A DNA stretch of 9,775 nucleotides from Actinomycetota bacterium (GTDB lineage: Bacteria > Actinomycetota > Actinomycetes > Streptosporangiales > Streptosporangiaceae). Where the stretch lies: assembly GCA_003168295.1 (NCBI GenBank), contig PMST01000609.1, positions 1 to 9,775 on the forward strand, written 5' to 3'. A model generated the notes under the pieces. The model had not been told where the DNA came from, searched no databases, and was given only the letters and a program-made list of their open reading frames with translations. The position numbers and the translations under genes were made by a program. Positions 58 to 8,762 of the stretch are shown here, piece by piece (position 1 is the stretch's first letter; every line of letters begins with the position of its first letter).

Positions 58-79
58 GCTCTGGCATCATGAGCTCTGG
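50..79. repeat. 15-bp perfect tandem duplication holding both convergent stop codons
   Basis: The unit CATCATGAGCTCTGG occurs twice head to tail (50-64 and 65-79). Each unit contains TCATGA, a palindrome that reads TGA on both strands. The plus-strand partial gene stops in copy 1 and the minus-strand GGDEF gene stops in copy 2. A 14-bp perfect palindrome, CTCTTGATCAAGAG (82-95), follows inside the end of the GGDEF gene. No T tract suggests a terminator. Confidence 0.85.
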
Positions 80-1467
80 ACCTCTTGATCAAGAGTTCTG
101 GACACGGCAAAAGCGCTCGGCAGATCGGTACGGCTGCCACCCGTGCCGCCGTCAGCGCCGCGATCTGAGTTCCGCGCGCCGCTGATGGCGCTGAGACCCC
201 TTGTCGTGCTGATCATCTGTACCTGATCCCGGCCGCCTGCCTTAGCCCGGTACAGCGCGGCGTCGGCCATTGCCATCAGGTCGGAGTATTCCCGCTTGCT
301 GCCGCTGTCCAGCGCCGCCACTCCGACCGACACGGTGACACGCACCCGCTCCCCGCCGGTTGTCCCTGGAGCGATGATGGACAAGCCGGCGATGTTAGCG
401 CGCACACGCTCCGCGATGCGGAACGCGTCTACCGCGCGGGTCTGAGGCAGAAGCAGTGCGAACTCCTCGCCGCCGAAGCGGCCGGCCCGGTCATAATCGC
501 GCAGCAAGCCATTCAGCGTGTGCGCGATCTCCTTGATGACCTCATCACCGACCATATGGCCGTACGTGTCATTGATGACCTTGAACCTGTCGATGTCGAG
601 CATCGCGACCGCCAGCGGTGTCCTGGTACGTACTGCCCGGGCGACCTCCGCAGTAGACTCACGTTCCCAGGTGGCCGCGTTCAGCAGACCTGTCTTGGAA
701 TCGGCTCGCGCGTCGTTGACCAGCTGAACATGCCGCAGTGACCGCTGCAGCAACGTGACAACGGGCAAGGCCACGGGGGCAAGGATCGGGTTTCCGGCCA
801 CCGCGTAGGTAACCAGGACACTAATGCAGATCTCGGCGGTGTCGTTGTAGAGTGGCTCACCGCTGAAAAGCTCCGTACGGATACTCGCAGCCGGGTCGGT
901 GCCCTTGACGGCCGTCATGATCATGGCCTTGTTCAGGACCGACTTCACCAGGACGCTGAGCGTCACTAGCAAGGTCCATACCATTCCGTGACCGAGGGCC
1001 CAGCCCGCGGAGGCTGGCATGAGGCCAGACAGGCCATGGAAGGTCACCGACGCTGCGCCGTAGGAGAGCCCGAGTGACGCGCCGCTGAACACCCGCCGAT
1101 AAGTGGGCGCGCGCCGGACCCGCCACTGCGTCAGCGCTACCCGGACGATCGGGGCAATCAGGGCAAAGAGCGGAGGCAGCAAGATGGCGACTGGCAATTC
1201 CCAGACGCCTTGGACGTCCTTGATCATGCCGCCCTGTTCCCCAGCCTTCCTGCTCAGCTCGATGGCGCACGCCGTGCAGGCCAGCAGCAGGATGAAAAGG
1301 ATCAGGTCATGTCCGGTGACCGTCGTAACGGAGGCCGCGATACCGATGGCGGCGCCATCAACGGCAATGACCGTAAGGACGAAGACCGAGAGCCAGCGGG
1401 GCAAGGACCAGATGGGCCAGCCACTGACGGCTGTCAGCCACCGCGCGAGGCGACGGCCGATCTCCAT
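67..1467 (-). CDS. Membrane-anchored diguanylate cyclase (GGDEF domain)
   Basis: Predicted to condense two GTP into cyclic di-GMP at the inner face of the membrane. I choose the ATG at 1467 (466 aa, MEIGRRLARW) because GGAGGGAGG (1474-1482) lies six bases upstream; a GTG at 1581 would add 38 residues but has no comparable site. The N-terminal half holds about six hydrophobic segments, a membrane sensor region I cannot assign to a named MASE family. After a short linker the GGDEF domain covers roughly residues 250-420. It has LDIDRF with metal-binding aspartates near 291-293 and the signature GGEEF at 332-336. The RxxD inhibitory site (RDYD, 323-326) lies exactly five residues before the signature, so feedback inhibition by c-di-GMP is expected. 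The last 45 residues or so are Gly/Ser/Arg-rich and probably disordered. No EAL or HD-GYP domain is present. Its upstream region carries opposite-strand mini-ORFs, so it is probably transcribed alone. Confidence 0.9.
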   Translation of the reverse strand: MEIGRRLARWLTAVSGWPIWSLPRWLSVFVLTVIAVDGAAIGIAASVTTVTGHDLILFILLLACTACAIELSRKAGEQGGMIKDVQGVWELPVAILLPPLFALIAPIVRVALTQWRVRRAPTYRRVFSGASLGLSYGAASVTFHGLSGLMPASAGWALGHGMVWTLLVTLSVLVKSVLNKAMIMTAVKGTDPAASIRTELFSGEPLYNDTAEICISVLVTYAVAGNPILAPVALPVVTLLQRSLRHVQLVNDARADSKTGLLNAATWERESTAEVARAVRTRTPLAVAMLDIDRFKVINDTYGHMVGDEVIKEIAHTLNGLLRDYDRAGRFGGEEFALLLPQTRAVDAFRIAERVRANIAGLSIIAPGTTGGERVRVTVSVGVAALDSGSKREYSDLMAMADAALYRAKAGGRDQVQMISTTRGLSAISGARNSDRGADGGTGGSRTDLPSAFAVSRTLDQEVQSS

Positions 1468-1767
1468 CAGCGGCCTCCCTCCTACCACGTAGCGTACCGC
1501 CGTTCGCACAGCGGTCCACCTCGCCATTGTCCCCCAAAAACCCATGCCCAGAGTGCAAACGGTGAAAACCCGGCTACTCACTGGTAGAAGACTATCTTCT
1601 CTTCTGGCTCGATTTACCTCATGGCTATCCGAAAGTAATGGCGAAGTTGCGCCAAGTAACTATGGGGATCGATCATTTCCGGCATTAGGTGCAAAATGCC
1701 TCTTAGGCTTGACAACTGACGACAATTGGTTACCGCAGGGCGCCGGAAATATCGGGAGGAGGATGCC
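1468..1767. other. Intergenic leader between the GGDEF gene and the first mini-ORF
   Basis: This stretch is clearly richer in A and T than the flanking genes, and no open frame in it has coding-like codon use. On the minus strand it would hold the promoter and leader of the GGDEF gene; I see no c-di-GMP riboswitch-like sequence. On the plus strand a perfect TTGACA (1709-1714) could be a -35 box for the mini-ORFs, but the -10 position 16 bases on reads TACCGC, a poor match. Just upstream, GGCATT (1681-1686) and AATGCC (1695-1700) form a perfect inverted repeat with an 8-base loop, which could be an operator or hairpin. A further seven-codon frame, MPLRLDN (1696-1719), starts inside that repeat. 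Its ribosome site is weak and it is not related to the three downstream ones. Confidence 0.4.
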
Positions 1768-1791
1768 ATGCCCGGCGAGAGCTCGGGCTGA
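1768..1791 (+). CDS. Seven-codon mini-ORF 1 (MPGESSG)
   Basis: ATG to TGA encodes MPGESSG. A strong Shine-Dalgarno, GGGAGGAGG (1754-1762), lies five bases before the ATG. It matches 19 of 24 bases with the two mini-ORFs downstream and keeps the M-x-G-E-x-x-G pattern. An ATG at 1763 opens a longer frame of 64 codons ending at 1954, but it overlaps the Shine-Dalgarno end and its product looks non-coding. Function is unknown. It could be a secreted or modified micropeptide precursor, a translated regulatory leader, or a decayed duplication of a gene start. Translation is inferred from the ribosome site and the repetition only. Confidence 0.45.
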   Translation: MPGESSG

Positions 1792-1865
1792 ACTACCTGT
1801 CTGGCCTTTACGTTGTATTAGTTACTTAGAGCATTCATGTCAGTACTCAGAGGAAGGTGGGCGAG

Positions 1866-1889
1866 ATGCGCGGCGAGCAGTGGGGCTAG
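1866..1889 (+). CDS. Seven-codon mini-ORF 2 (MRGEQWG)
   Basis: ATG to TAG encodes MRGEQWG. AGGAAGG (1851-1857) lies eight bases before the start. The first 22 bases are identical to mini-ORF 3, while the flanks on both sides differ. The stop is TAG here and TGA in mini-ORF 3, so the peptide length is kept although the third stop-codon bases differ. It starts 98 bases after mini-ORF 1. I know no named family with this peptide. A single Trp and a single Gln leave few side chains for a cross-linked product, and no modifying enzyme gene is in the window. Confidence 0.5.
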   Translation: MRGEQWG

Positions 1890-1952
1890 ATCATCCGACC
1901 GACCAGTACCACCCGCAGAAAGGAGACACCATGCGCGGCGAGCAGTGGGGCT
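1866..1952 (+). repeat. 22-bp exact direct repeat (copies at 1866-1887 and 1931-1952)
   Basis: The two copies run from ATG through the first T of the stop codon without a mismatch and are 65 bases apart start to start. Identity ends sharply: upstream both flanks have purine-rich ribosome sites of different sequence, and downstream the bases differ yet both complete a stop codon. A third, diverged copy is at 1768-1791. Identity at wobble positions as well suggests either recent duplication of a very short unit or constraint on the nucleic acid itself, such as a protein or RNA binding site. Confidence 0.9.
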
Positions 1953-1954
1953 GA
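1931..1954 (+). CDS. Seven-codon mini-ORF 3 (MRGEQWG)
   Basis: ATG to TGA encodes the same heptapeptide as mini-ORF 2. AAAGGAG (1919-1925) lies five bases before the ATG, the best-placed site after that of mini-ORF 1. The stop ends one base before the stop codon of the convergent MFS gene, so any plus-strand transcript would run antisense into the MFS 3' end. No further copy and no longer plus-strand gene follows. This argues against a simple leader-peptide attenuator, which would need a structural gene downstream on the same strand. Confidence 0.5.
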   Translation: MRGEQWG

Positions 1955-1955
1955 C

Positions 1956-3212
1956 CTAAGTGTGCTGATGGCGCCGGCTGGACCAGTCTTGATCGCGGAC
2001 CCAGCTGAACGCGATGACCAGTGCCGTAACGGCGCCGACAGCACCGCATACTGCGATAACCAAGGCCGGGGAATGATGGTCTGCGGCGGCTCCGGCCAGG
2101 ACCATGACGATTCCCTGGCCCAGGCTCATGCCGCCCTGGGCCAGGCCGAAGGCCTGGCTGCGCTGTTCGGTTGGTGCTGCGTTGACGAAGGCGGCGTTGG
2201 CGGCCAGCTGGTAGGCAGCGAACAGGCCGGAGGCGAACAGGATCAGCAGCGATGCCGGCAGGTCAGGCCGCCAGATAAACAGCACAAGGACGGCTGAGGC
2301 AGCGACCGATAGCGGGCCCATGGACCACAGCCGTGTCGGCGGAGCCACGAAACGGCTGAACACGATCGCCCCCGCAGTCTCCCCCAGAGCCGGGGCGGCC
2401 AGGATGACGCCGACGGCGATGGCACCGCCGCCCAGAGCCCGGGCGAGCGGGGTTACTACCCCTTCCGGAGCGTTGTAGAACGCAGCGAGCCAGCCGAAGA
2501 GCATGGTGGTACGCAAGGTCCGGTTGGCGAACACCAGGCGGATTCCGGCCATGACCCCGGCCGGCCGTGACGGCTCGGCGGTCTGGCGGGTTAGGGTGAC
2601 CGCCGCGGGCCGGACCCGTACCCACGCCCGCACGATGAGCGCGGACGCGACGAAGGTCGCGGCGTCGACGGCCAGCGATGTCCGGATGCCGAACAAACCG
2701 ACGATCGCGCCCCCGGTGGCGAAACCGAGGACCTGCGCGAACTGGAACGTGGTGAGGGTCACCGCGGTGCCCATCAGGTACCTATCGCCGGTCAGCACGT
2801 CGGGGTAAAGCGCCGCCCGCGCCGAGGTGAACGGCGCCCCGGCCAACGTCACCACGAAGAGCAACGCCACCATCGCGGCTATGGGCACCCTCGGGAGGGC
2901 CATGACCAGGACGAGAACCGCCCGGGCCAGGTCGCACGCGATCATCACGCGACGGCGCGGATAGCGATCGGCCAGCCAGGCGAGGGTGATGCCGCCGACG
3001 AAGGTCGGCACGATGCTCACCACGAAGGTGATCGCCGCGAGCAGTGCGGAGCGGGTTCTGTCGTAGACGAGTATGGTCAGCGCGACACGGGCAAGCTGAT
3101 CACCAGCTACCGACAAAAGCTGCGCCAGCCACAGAGCCCGGAACTCTGCCACCGCAAACACGTCGCGGAACGTTGTCTTCGCGGCCTGCTCGGATGCACC
3201 CCCCCGGGCCAC
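1956..3212 (-). CDS. MFS transporter, MFS_3/EntS-like exporter
   Basis: A 418-residue polytopic membrane protein with about 12 hydrophobic segments, the usual size for a proton-driven drug or siderophore exporter. The conserved loop between helices 2 and 3 is present as GGITLAWLADRYPRRRVM at about 73-90 (G, D, R and the RRR basic cluster of MFS motif A). The N-terminal FRALWLAQLLSVAGDQLARVAL and the DAATFVASALIV stretch near 183-194 resemble the MFS_3 branch (transmembrane secretion effector, EntS). Substrate cannot be told. The only recognised start codon is GTG at 3212, but the strong GGAGG (3233-3237) is 20 bases away from it. An in-frame ATA at 3227 is five bases from GGAGG, and translation from there would add five residues. 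An in-frame TGA further upstream, with no ATG, GTG or TTG after it, limits other choices. It is separated from pheT by about 150 bp, so it probably has its own promoter, though I find no clear one. Confidence 0.85.
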   Translation of the reverse strand: MARGGASEQAAKTTFRDVFAVAEFRALWLAQLLSVAGDQLARVALTILVYDRTRSALLAAITFVVSIVPTFVGGITLAWLADRYPRRRVMIACDLARAVLVLVMALPRVPIAAMVALLFVVTLAGAPFTSARAALYPDVLTGDRYLMGTAVTLTTFQFAQVLGFATGGAIVGLFGIRTSLAVDAATFVASALIVRAWVRVRPAAVTLTRQTAEPSRPAGVMAGIRLVFANRTLRTTMLFGWLAAFYNAPEGVVTPLARALGGGAIAVGVILAAPALGETAGAIVFSRFVAPPTRLWSMGPLSVAASAVLVLFIWRPDLPASLLILFASGLFAAYQLAANAAFVNAAPTEQRSQAFGLAQGGMSLGQGIVMVLAGAAADHHSPALVIAVCGAVGAVTALVIAFSWVRDQDWSSRRHQHT

Positions 3213-6042: not shown

Positions 6043-7188
6043 TCAGATCTCCATCCCGAACGCCCGGCTGAACCGTACGTCGCCGTCTACCGCGTCCCTG
6101 ATCTCGGTCAGCCCGTGCCCGATCATCAGGCTGCGCTCGATGCCCAGCCCGAAGGCGAATCCGCTGTACCTGTCGGGGTCGATGCCGCACGCGACCAGCA
6201 CCCGCGGGTTCACCATGCCGCAGCCCGCGATCTCGATCCAGCCTTGCGAACGGCAGACCCGGCACGGGTCACCGCCCGGTCTTCGCCGACGCGCCGCGGC
6301 AGATGTGGCATTCCATCGACACGTCACCCGACGGCTCGGTGAAGGGGAAGTAATCGGGCCGGAGCCGGGTCCGCAGTCCCGACGCCGAACATGCGCGTCC
6401 ACGAACGACTGGATCGCGCCGCGCAGGTCGGCCATCGTCAGGCCCTCATCCACCGCGAGCCCTTCGATCTGGTGGAACACCGGGCTATGCGTGGCGTCAA
6501 GAGCCTCGTTGCGGTAGCACCGGCCCGGGCTGACCACGTAAAGCGGCAGCGGCCGCGACAGCATCGACCTGATCTGCACCGGCGAGGTGTGCGTCCGGAG
6601 CACCAGGCCCGACCTGGCGTCCTCCGCCTGCTGACCGGCCGCCCCGCTGGCCGAGGCGATGAACAGGGTGTCCTGCATCTCCCTGGCCGGGTGGTCAGGC
6701 GGGATATTCAGCGCGTCGAAGTTATACCACTCCGCCTCGACCTCAGGCCCCTCTGCGACCTCGTAGCCCATCGCGACGAATACGTCGGACAGCCGATCCG
6801 AAGTCGTGGTGACCGGATGCCGCGCGCCGGCCGGGGTCCGGCCGCCGGGCAGGGTGACGTCGACGGCCTCGGTGATCAGCACCTGCCGGTCGCGGTCGGC
6901 TTCCAGCTCGGCCTGGCGGTTCTGCAGCGCCTTGCGGAGCTGGCCTTTGGCCGCGCCCACCCGGCGCCCGGTGTCGGCCCGGGCCTCCGGAGGCAGCGCG
7001 CCGATCTCGGCGCTGGCCAGCGAGAGCGGCGCCCGGTCACCGTCGTGCGCGATCCGGGCCGCCTTCAGTTCATCGAGCGTTCCGGCGGCGGCGACGGCAG
7101 CGAGTGCCTCGTCAAGCGCGCGCGCTATCTCGTCCGGCGCCAATGAGGCCACCGTCCGTGGGTCGTAATTCTTGTTTGGTGCGGACAT
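6043..7188 (-). CDS. pheS: Phenylalanine-tRNA ligase alpha subunit, with an internally scrambled segment
   Basis: The catalytic alpha chain of PheRS. I start it at the ATG at 7188 (MSAPNKNYD, 381 aa), which has an AGGA just upstream; the longer frame from 7290 has no ribosome site and an atypical N-terminus. Residues 1-100 form the coiled-coil tRNA-binding arm. The class II core follows: [33 protein letters not shown], motif 2 with [21 protein letters not shown] (about 226-246) and motif 3 with [13 protein letters not shown] (343-355). Residues 267-305 are nonsense for the family. Removing one base near 6387-6396, one near 6371-6372 and one in the C run 6275-6277 restores [23 protein letters not shown], then CHIC and CRVC cysteine pairs, then [16 protein letters not shown]. 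The three +1 shifts sum to one codon, so the frame stays open. As written the protein would lack FPFTEP, part of the phenylalanine pocket region, and should be inactive. Sequencing error is the likeliest cause because the gene is essential. Confidence 0.92.
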
Positions 7189-7466
7189 GGGTCCTGCTTC
7201 CTGCGGGCCGTACGTCATTTGCGGTTCTGCTGAGGTTCTGACGAGTAATTCGCCGAACGGGCCGTGGTGACAGCGGTGTCCCCGAGGCAAAAGAAGTTCC
7301 TCGAAGGCGAAGCGGGCAGGCCGGGAAATGGCCGGACATGTGTCTGCGCGGTTTATCCGCAGGACATCAGCGCCCGCCGATCGCTGTGCTGGATTGCCCG
7401 AAGGGACATTACCTTACCGAGTCATCACGCGCTGCCGACAGACCCCGGGAGTCCTAGGCGGCGTTC
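7189..7466 (-). other. Upstream region of pheS, no supported regulatory element
   Basis: This 278-bp gap should hold the pheST promoter and leader. I searched for a T-box (specifier loop and antiterminator), a Phe-rich leader peptide and a hairpin followed by T residues, and found none convincing. A 5-bp inverted repeat CGAGG/CCTCG (7283-7287 and 7299-7303) is too short to weigh. TAAGGT/TAATGT-like boxes near 7400-7412 have no good -35 partner. Confidence 0.3.
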
Positions 7467-8762
7467 TTAGCCGGCGGCAGTCCCCGCGGGCATGATAAAT
7501 CGGAACTCGGCACCGCCGCCGGGCGCGCGGCGCACGCCGATCGTGCCGCCATGGGCCTCGACGAGGCCCTTGACGATATACAGTCCGAGGCCGGTGCCGC
7601 CGCGGCGCTTGCCCCGCCAGAACTGGCGGAACACGCGGGGCGCTACCTCCGGCGAGATGCCCTCGCCCTGGTCACGCACCGAGACGGCGGCCGCGTCGGG
7701 CAGGGCGGACGGCGCTTCCGCCGCTTCATCGCCCAAGTGCGCTGGTTCCACCACGACTGTCACGATACCAGCCCCGTGCCGGACAGCGTTTTCCACCAGG
7801 TTGCTGAGGATCTGATCGATCTTATCGGCGTCCAGCCAGGTCTCCGGCAGGCCGCTGCGGACCTCGAGCCGGTACCGGTCCTCGGCGTCGCCCGCGGCGA
7901 CGCGGCCCGCGATGATCTTCCTCGCCCGGTCGGGCAGGTCCACCAGCTGCCGGTGAACTTCCATCCGGCCTGACTCGATCCTGGACACGTCGAGCAGCTC
8001 GGTGATGAGCCTGGTCACGCGGTCAGCGTCGGCGTTCACCGTCTCCAGCATCACGCGCTTCTGGTCGTCGGTGAACCGGCCCCACTTGTTCAGCAGCGTG
8101 GCGGTGAACCCCTTGACGCTGGTGAGCGGGGAACGCAGCTCGTGTGCGACGGTCGATACCAGCTCGGCGCGACTGCGTTCCAGCCGCTCCCGCTGCTGCG
8201 CACCGCGCAGGCTGATGACGAGTTTTTGCAGTGCTAGCCCGGGGGGGGCGACCCCCCCCAAACCCCCCCCGCTTACGGGGGGGCTGCCCGCCCCCCCGTG
8301 CCCCCCGGGCCCCCCTTGGGGGGGATGAGGCGTACGGCTCGCTTTGGGGGTGCGGACGTAGCCGACCGAGACCAGGAGCTCGGTGCCGTTTGAGAGGTAC
8401 AGGGATCGTTCTGGGTGACGGGTGCGGGTAGGCAGGCCGTGGTAGGGATCGGCGTAGACCCACCAGTCGCGTCCATCGGCGTCGCGGAGCGGCAGCATGT
8501 CGAACACGAACTTGCCGATGACCTCGGCCGGTTCCAGCCCGGTCAGGCGGGCGGCGACGCGGTTGAACACGACAATGCGGCCGACCTCGTCGGCCACCAC
8601 CACCCCATCCGGCAGCTCATCGGCGAAGACCAGGCTGCCGATCGGCACCGGGCCTTCCGGTAGCGGGCTGATACCGTTCGCGGTCTCGCGGTTTGTGGGC
8701 GCCTGGGCCGTTGACGGGGTCCTTGGGTCCGATGACGCCCGGCTCGATATGAGCTTGTCCAC
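7467..8762 (-). CDS. PAS-domain sensor histidine kinase, no partner regulator nearby
   Basis: A 431-aa kinase with no clear transmembrane segment, so probably cytoplasmic. It starts at GTG 8762, with GGAGG about ten bases upstream and no better alternative. Order: low-complexity N-terminus (1-40); PAS domain at about 44-137 (LPDGVVVADEVGRIVVFNRVAARLTG); a Gly/Pro-rich linker at 141-175 encoded by an odd GC-homopolymer block; HisKA helices with the H box STVAHELRSPL, phospho-acceptor His207; HATPase domain with N box NLVENAVRHG (Asn321, Asn325), G1 box DQGEGI (364-369) and G2 box GGTGLGL (388-394). All key residues are present, so it should autophosphorylate. No response regulator gene adjoins it. 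It lies between the TrmH gene and pheS, a position I recall for a homologous kinase in Streptomyces. The signal is unknown. pheS starts 278 bp after its stop, so the two may be transcribed separately. Confidence 0.93.
   Translation of the reverse strand: MDKLISSRASSDPRTPSTAQAPTNRETANGISPLPEGPVPIGSLVFADELPDGVVVADEVGRIVVFNRVAARLTGLEPAEVIGKFVFDMLPLRDADGRDWWVYADPYHGLPTRTRHPERSLYLSNGTELLVSVGYVRTPKASRTPHPPQGGPGGHGGAGSPPVSGGGLGGVAPPGLALQKLVISLRGAQQRERLERSRAELVSTVAHELRSPLTSVKGFTATLLNKWGRFTDDQKRVMLETVNADADRVTRLITELLDVSRIESGRMEVHRQLVDLPDRARKIIAGRVAAGDAEDRYRLEVRSGLPETWLDADKIDQILSNLVENAVRHGAGIVTVVVEPAHLGDEAAEAPSALPDAAAVSVRDQGEGISPEVAPRVFRQFWRGKRRGGTGLGLYIVKGLVEAHGGTIGVRRAPGGGAEFRFIMPAGTAAG
8222..8345. 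repeat. GC-homopolymer palindromic block inside the kinase gene
   Basis: Runs of six to eight identical bases alternate: G8 (8241-8248), C8 (8252-8259), C8 (8263-8270), G7 (8277-8283), C7 (8291-8297), C6 (8301-8306), C6 (8310-8315), G7 (8318-8324). They pair into hairpins: G8-CGA-C8 (8241-8259); an 8-bp stem CCCCCCCG/CGGGGGGG with loop CTTA (8264-8283); a competing 7-bp G7/C7 stem (8277-8297); and C6-TT-G6 (8310-8323). The minus strand holds five C-run-derived G tracts of six or more bases, so G-quadruplex folding is possible. The block is read through in frame as a Gly/Pro linker of the kinase. All six frames give Gly/Pro/Arg-rich readings without stops over most of it. It resembles an inserted dispersed palindromic repeat; copy number elsewhere cannot be seen from this window. 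Boundaries are approximate. Confidence 0.75.

Follow-up and report, generated by a model that had tools for sequence, protein, structure and literature searches.

What is encoded in the short gap between the divergent start of a GGDEF gene and the end of an MFS gene on contig PMST01000609.1, from a bacterium of the Streptosporangiaceae? On the plus strand of this gap, the stretch of DNA analysed here (the window, 9775 bp) carries three tandem open reading frames (ORFs) of seven codons, each with its own Shine-Dalgarno (SD) sequence. An initial annotation had described these micro-ORFs and suggested that a heptapeptide is made from them; the positions, SDs and sequence identities that it gave all hold on re-reading of the sequence. 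We find that the trio belongs to a family of putative genes of 6-8 codons, often in tandem, that many soil actinobacteria carry divergently from a predicted membrane enzyme making cyclic di-GMP (c-di-GMP). The micro-ORFs of the window are as follows.

1754..1762, plus strand: SD of micro-ORF 1, GGGAGGAGG, 5 nt from the ATG (read from sequence)
1768..1791, plus strand: micro-ORF 1, ATGCCCGGCGAGAGCTCGGGCTGA, MPGESSG-TGA, probably a decayed copy, without the R2 and W6 of the family
1849..1857, plus strand: SD of micro-ORF 2, AGAGGAAGG, 8 nt from the ATG (read from sequence)
1866..1889, plus strand: micro-ORF 2, ATGCGCGGCGAGCAGTGGGGCTAG, MRGEQWG-TAG; the homologous place in locus L003 holds MRGEQWT three times
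1919..1925, plus strand: SD of micro-ORF 3, AAAGGAG, 5 nt from the ATG (read from sequence)
1931..1954, plus strand: micro-ORF 3, ATGCGCGGCGAGCAGTGGGGCTGA, MRGEQWG-TGA (read from sequence)

The trio spans 187 bp. Micro-ORFs 2 and 3 have 22 bases in common and micro-ORF 1 matches at 19 of 24, while the flanks of these two copies have only 9 of 30 bases in common immediately 5' and 9 of 30 immediately 3'. Throughout the window, on both strands, SD-preceded seven-codon ORFs with an ATG or GTG start occur only at these three places. Upon shuffling of the 485-bp gap, the plus strand held a mean of 0.07 such ORFs and none of 300 shuffles reached three or more; an exact 14-nt repeat appeared in 0 of 300, and the degenerate pattern ATGCSNGGNGARN6GGNTRR, with three matches in the gap, had a mean of 0 over 200 shuffles. 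These controls confirm that the trio far exceeds chance. A sigma-70 promoter scan of the gap found none, and its minus strand holds two terminator-like sites against a shuffle mean of 0.5.

The same arrangement is present in relatives. Homologues of the GGDEF protein (the best 120 of 7440, nearly all of them metagenome proteins, with a Streptosporangiaceae metagenome-assembled genome (MAG) represented) were aligned, and scanning this alignment against genome contigs gave 38 loci, ranging from Streptosporangiaceae MAGs to Pseudonocardia, Amycolatopsis, Nocardiopsis and a Frankiaceae MAG. On the strand opposite the GGDEF gene we repeatedly found an SD, a start and an ORF of 6-8 codons, often in tandem. 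The recurrent unit consists of 1 to 13 such ultrasmall ORFs, each with its own SD and of the form M-R-x(2-4)-W-x(0-2)-stop, which diverge from the gene of a membrane diguanylate cyclase (DGC); a convergent MFS gene often lies on their far side. For example, L001 has MRNTHWG, L002 has MRGDSWG twice, L012 has MRNEWS four times, and L003 has MRGEQWT three times and MRTTMWT twice, preceding two GGDEF genes. MRGISWI is found in three Actinoallomurus and MRGVSWI in Actinomadura macra; Pseudonocardia bannensis has six RNKNW-type ORFs, and the Frankiaceae MAG has MRGVNWV and MRSVQWA.

The initial annotation had proposed the pattern M[RP]GE..G. Its arginine recurs, but the second recurrent residue is a near-terminal tryptophan and not GE..G, and MPGESSG has neither of the two; because the family motif is MR...W, MPGESSG is probably a decayed or decaying copy. 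R2 is found in 40 of 47 distinct dominant peptides, a share conditional on the search motif, which restricted position 2 to R, S, G or A, required W, and left out MPGESSG, MLDNWRWP (L028) and MRGRDY (L032). In a count free of the motif, W occurs in 40 of 43 repeated SD-preceded tiny peptides of the array strand, and the opposite strand has no repeated tiny peptides. N, T, G, S, D and E predominate in the middle of the peptides. Among the 192 motif ORFs, all leaderless, 159 have products of 7 residues, 20 of 6 and 13 of 8, and start-to-start spacing within arrays is mostly 61-81 nt. The longest arrays are those of the G145 family, with 13 copies of MRDTTWS/R in L119, eight of MRDNNWN and eight of MRDNTWT. 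Four loci (L073, L074, L136, L201) have two peptides, with MRDTWT constant and a varying partner (VRSTIWY, MRVTYWH, MRVQWV, MRNTWA). A single MRDTWTR ORF preceding a kumamolisin-like gene (L074:12860) was rejected as a member, as a single copy without support.

The micro-ORFs are almost certainly translated. At least one motif ORF is present in 65 of 89 distinct GGDEF upstream regions, which together contain the 192 ORFs. (The script returned 91 regions, of which L115 duplicates L021 and L139 duplicates L037, all four being empty; eleven later DGC loci, seven with micro-ORFs, are outside this count.) Measured from an SD-preceded start to the first TGG after it, the spacing is in phase 0 in 189 of 206 cases; of the 13 in phase 2, 10 are GTGs nested within MRANSWD ORFs, and 61 starts had no TGG within reach. 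Starts are ATG in 175 cases and GTG in 17, and stops are TGA in 174, TAG in 9 and TAA in 9. Within arrays, 32 of 46 codon variants are synonymous and 14 are not, against 12.8 synonymous expected (p=5e-9, with the R2 and W columns and single-copy arrays omitted; this p ignores shared ancestry, and related arrays are not independent). Six arrays exchange the serine codons AGC and TCC, MRDSNWT has its serine as AGC and TCG, and MRGNSWD is encoded by 10 DNA variants over 6 loci, all giving one peptide. Because the codon variants are mostly synonymous, the comparison establishes that selection acts on the 6-8 residue product. That a heptapeptide is made is thus strongly supported: relatives keep SD, start, frame and stop, while codons swap synonymously and the intervening sequence diverges.

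Which gene do the arrays accompany? We used a tandem DNA pattern blind to gene content, two copies of RTGCG-N10-TGG-N3-TRR at a distance of 34-64 bp (TRR also admits TGG, so that some raw matches are not ORFs; the maps used true stops). Among 394 genomes of the class, 21 match, and the reversed pattern matches in 4 genomes, once each. The 21 genomes hold 32 clusters, a second G145 array included, and 28 of these adjoin a match to DGC profile A2, divergent and a few hundred bases away. A draw of 120 genomes of the family of L001 gave 7 matching genomes with 8 clusters, 5 of which adjoin a DGC; the draws overlap in some genomes, but with each cluster counted once, 33 of 40 clusters adjoin a DGC of this family. 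The pattern also matches 16 of 22 genomes of the G145 family. The other seven clusters are G032, G358, G360, G185:7205618, G456, G408/L180 and G427/L181. The first six were rejected as arrays, being non-ORFs, repeats of short period or the terminal part of an MFS ORF, although this does not prove that they are chance; G427/L181 is the only one that looks real. A phylum draw of 149 genomes gave only low-complexity matches, in G519. On viral contigs the pattern matched 18 stretches, with no GGDEF gene within the DNA covered, and an MFS-based search of viral contigs found nothing; a few of these viral stretches carry paired ORFs, e.g. L170.

In all 19 genomes with at least two array-bearing DGCs, every such DGC has a dominant peptide that none of its paralogues shares; five peptides recur, each in two to six genomes. 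Judged by sequence, the arrays are shown to be paired one to one with membrane DGCs. The initial annotation had placed the peptides in the gap between GGDEF and MFS homologues. Because arrays persist where MFS is absent, the constant partner is the GGDEF gene and not this gap, and MFS was rejected as a constant partner on the same ground. The regular and the frequent partner in the window, with the region between them, are as follows.

67..1467, minus strand: divergent partner, a membrane DGC (Pfam GGDEF 1e-40, alignments, fold)
1468..1753, no strand: divergent control region, from the DGC start to the first micro-ORF SD (read from sequence)
1956..3212, minus strand: MFS protein (MFS_1/MFS_3), convergent with the micro-ORFs, a frequent second partner (domain matches, neighbour maps)

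The window DGC likely starts at the ATG at 1467, after GGAGGGAGG, and joins a membrane sensor domain to a GGDEF domain (Pfam PF00990, 1e-40), whose GG[DE]EF motif reads GGEEF and is invariant in the alignments. Models of the sensor suggest a likeness to S-components of ECF transporters. Pfam PF07694 gave no match on the window and L119 sensors (maximum E-value 10, with filters dropping most above about 0.1), and the window sensor has a sub-threshold MASE9 match (E 0.026). For the window MFS protein the best NCBIfam matches are efflux-type, all below cut-off. By script, an MFS gene is the first neighbour beyond the array in 36 of 65 regions, as it is in a further 5 once a spurious ORF that overlies the array, and was scored as the neighbour, is set aside. 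In Amycolatopsis eburnea, A. sp. CA-128772 and Kibdelosporangium persicum (L034, L035, L036), MFS and DGC form one protein of 873-910 aa; L034 and L035 have in common a lone MASVSWV ORF about 2-4 kb from the fusion.

Other genes accompany the DGC in some lineages. In L015 (7896-10982) and L020 (1273-4398), the DGC ORF extends without a frame break into an ABC-F ATPase (identified by Pfam on L015), and a single MAGVIWG micro-ORF lies upstream; Actinoallomurus L009 has ABC-F as a separate gene after the DGC. Several G145-family loci among L118-L128 have a gene of ~340 aa after the DGC, which in L118 and L119 encodes a PF10282 lactonase-type beta-propeller.

What might such pairs do? We read the locus as a peptide-cyclase signalling module, in which a leaderless micropeptide would be the ligand of its partner DGC, probably exported by the MFS protein, and we rate the chances of this as even. 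Sequence comparison shows the ORFs, the selection on them, their pairing with cyclases and the MFS-DGC fusion; secretion, binding and an effect on c-di-GMP are inferred. The repeated start-stop genes would supply a high dose of one leaderless formyl-peptide, which the adjoining, possibly efflux-type MFS would export. Either the whole peptide or a fragment would bind the S-component-like sensor of the partner DGC and switch c-di-GMP synthesis, and cells would thereby sense peptide from themselves or from their kin. Each DGC paralogue would have a private code in the variable middle residues. The working peptide of the window would be MRGEQWG, in two copies, with MPGESSG a decaying copy. The version in full, with 6-8 residue peptides from tandem arrays sensed directly by the divergently encoded membrane DGC, a private code per paralogue and often a dedicated MFS exporter, we hold tentatively, at slightly under an even chance.

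Several observations weigh against such a module. Among 53 array-bearing DGCs whose ORF reaches 380 aa or more (35 of them with MFS), peptide distance tracks the sensor at 0.63 versus 0.46 for GGDEF, and the partial Mantel correlation of peptide and sensor given GGDEF is 0.53; under the same GGDEF control, however, MFS distance reaches 0.72, and the peptide-sensor correlation is thus unspecific. Because this MFS control is also positive, much of the correlation may reflect a better clock. Peptide-sensor given MFS (0.38) versus peptide-MFS given sensor (-0.03) favours the sensor; coevolution was rejected as proof on the MFS control, and is suggestive only. The Foldseek E-values of the sensor are not significant; the ligands known for S-components are small molecules, and compared with the pocket of such a protein a heptapeptide is large. 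A gene other than MFS is next at 21 of 65 array regions (the contig ends at 3), and no motif micro-ORF lies upstream of the MFS-DGC fusions of L034, L035 and L036. An orphan array at L181:1141-1322 (minus strand), with MSGNWG, MRGVAWG and VRGEQWT, each after a purine-rich SD, sits between a nucleoside phosphorylase and a DUF222 gene, without an adjoining DGC. Homologous gaps that keep the repeat and break the ATG, SD or stop, which the initial annotation had named as its refutation, were mostly not found, but in L002 two intact copies are accompanied by an extra one with a broken frame. In addition, a motif ORF is missing from 24 of the 89 distinct upstream regions of GGDEF genes. These 24 include the three MFS-DGC fusions as well as loci of Nocardiopsis and Spongiactinospora, and two of them (L028, L032) carry related ORFs outside the motif.

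The micropeptide might instead stay inside the producing cell, as a dosage-controlled, unsecreted cofactor or inhibitor acting directly on the partner DGC (or MFS) in the membrane. The peptides are leaderless with hydrophilic middles, the DGC is retained even without MFS, and each paralogue has a single dominant peptide, all of which would fit. Against this, an MFS neighbour across distant lineages and the MFS-DGC fusions suggest transport, and the predicted sensor fold is of a ligand-binding type; we consider an intracellular regulator unlikely, though credible.

Alternatively, the ORFs could encode precursors of a modified peptide of the RiPP (ribosomally synthesized and post-translationally modified peptide) kind, with the modifying enzyme elsewhere, the MFS protein exporting the product and the DGC regulating or responding. 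Biarylitides have tiny precursors in multiple copies (available sections of PMC13417212), the recurrent tryptophan could be a modification site, and a few peptides have a second aromatic residue or histidine near W, e.g. MRVTYWH; such a residue is present in 12 ORF peptide types, for which a cross-link is possible. The initial annotation saw no P450 nearby, and this stands: a scan for the P450 haem-ligand signature found none in ORFs of at least 200 aa of array-bearing loci, within the reach that short loci allow. The DGC is the only enzyme beside the arrays that is common to the lineages, neighbours such as the lactonase-type propeller and ABC-F being lineage-bound, and the peptide varies by DGC paralogue. 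We regard a RiPP precursor as improbable.

A role of the array as RNA or through its translation, as an antisense to the MFS-DGC transcript, a ribosome or tRNA sink, or an attenuator, would accord with the window array lying antisense between MFS and DGC and converging on the MFS end, and with the regular start-to-start spacing. The next gene is on the array strand at 5 of the 62 array regions with a called neighbour; at the other 57 it is on the opposite strand, which leaves nothing to attenuate. Selection on residues, with its synonymous and serine codon swaps, the arrays without MFS and the lack of any Rfam match in the window also speak against this role, which we judge very improbable. 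Finally, chance, decayed gene starts or a product-less DNA repeat, to which MPGESSG without the recurrent residues and the frame-broken copy of L002 might point, is hardly credible in view of the shuffle controls, the same-frame recurrence in many genera and the synonymous excess.

The control region contains GTGA-N12-TCAC, common to L003 and a candidate element, which together with TNACNCWGNGTNA we take to be a consensus form of BldD-type boxes. In the divergent regions GTGA-N12-TCAC occurs in 4 of 65 (shuffle mean 0.4), TNACNCWGNGTNA in 3 of 65 (0.1) and the box with spacing 5-16 in 6 of 65 (4.7); such boxes are not a general feature. The remaining minus-strand genes of the window are pheT, pheS, a histidine kinase and a SpoU-type methyltransferase. 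The pheS ORF (6043-7290, minus strand) has an improbable Arg/Pro-rich middle at 6260-6400, like a local frame shift, which may be a sequencing error. In the histidine kinase gene, long C and G homopolymer runs at 8235-8335 place between PAS and HisKA a Gly/Pro-rich insert, which may have arisen recently or be an artefact of assembly. Short direct repeats CATCATGAGCTCTGG (two exact, one 80%) lie at 50-101, around the end of the GGDEF gene.

Genes of 6-8 codons are invisible to annotation. To our knowledge, the input sensed by membrane cyclases is largely an open question; if the peptides are ligands, the input of a whole cyclase family would be named. Peptide concentration would then set c-di-GMP in actinobacteria, synthetic heptapeptides could be supplied to cultures, and the module would be testable in cultured Jiangella alba, Pseudonocardia bannensis and Actinomadura macra. 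In Streptomyces, both development and antibiotic production are under the control of c-di-GMP, and BldD is one of its effectors (available sections of PMC4151990 and PMC7026642).

How do these arrays compare with known systems? Searches of open PMC papers gave no description of these peptides, of peptide-controlled diguanylate cyclases or of micro-ORF arrays with GGDEF genes. As in Rgg-SHP systems, a peptide gene adjoins a putative receptor gene, but SHPs are processed from longer propeptides, and their sensing is cytosolic. Biarylitides have minimal precursor genes (18 bp) missed by annotation, with up to six copies in Lysinibacillus; their precursors have five residues and a dedicated P450, whereas here there are 6-8 codons, no P450 found, and DGC and MFS partners (PMC13417212, in its available sections). 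With 5TMR/LytS-YhcK-type receptors and ECF S-components the DGCs may share the predicted sensor fold, S-component-like receptors being joined to GGDEF there too; the window and L119 sensors differ in having no PF07694 match, and an adjoining micropeptide array is not mentioned in the available sections of PMC11109136.

The nearest likeness is to leaderless communication peptides (LCPs) of Firmicutes such as SIP, encoded by a 24-bp ORF with RopB as receptor. According to the available sections of PMC10518010, LCPs too come from ultrasmall ORFs with their own ribosome-binding site, no leader or processing sequence and a distinct sequence per system, and in the cases described there their genes are divergent from the receptor gene ropB, as the arrays are from the DGC. 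However, the LCP receptor is a cytosolic RRNPPA regulator and the regular neighbour here a membrane GGDEF protein; LCPs are described as highly hydrophobic and mostly of 8-10 residues (PMC10518010, same sections), and the present peptides have 6-8 residues, hydrophilic middles and usually R2 and a near-terminal W. The arrays are also set apart by tandem repetition, with as many as 13 copies, and by their frequent MFS partner; the terms "tandem" and "actinobacteria" are absent from the main text of PMC10518010. We regard the system as categorically new in its parts. By analogy it is LCP-like in principle, with LCPs as its closest working analogue, but it is not an LCP member, because receptor class and peptide chemistry, both compared, differ.
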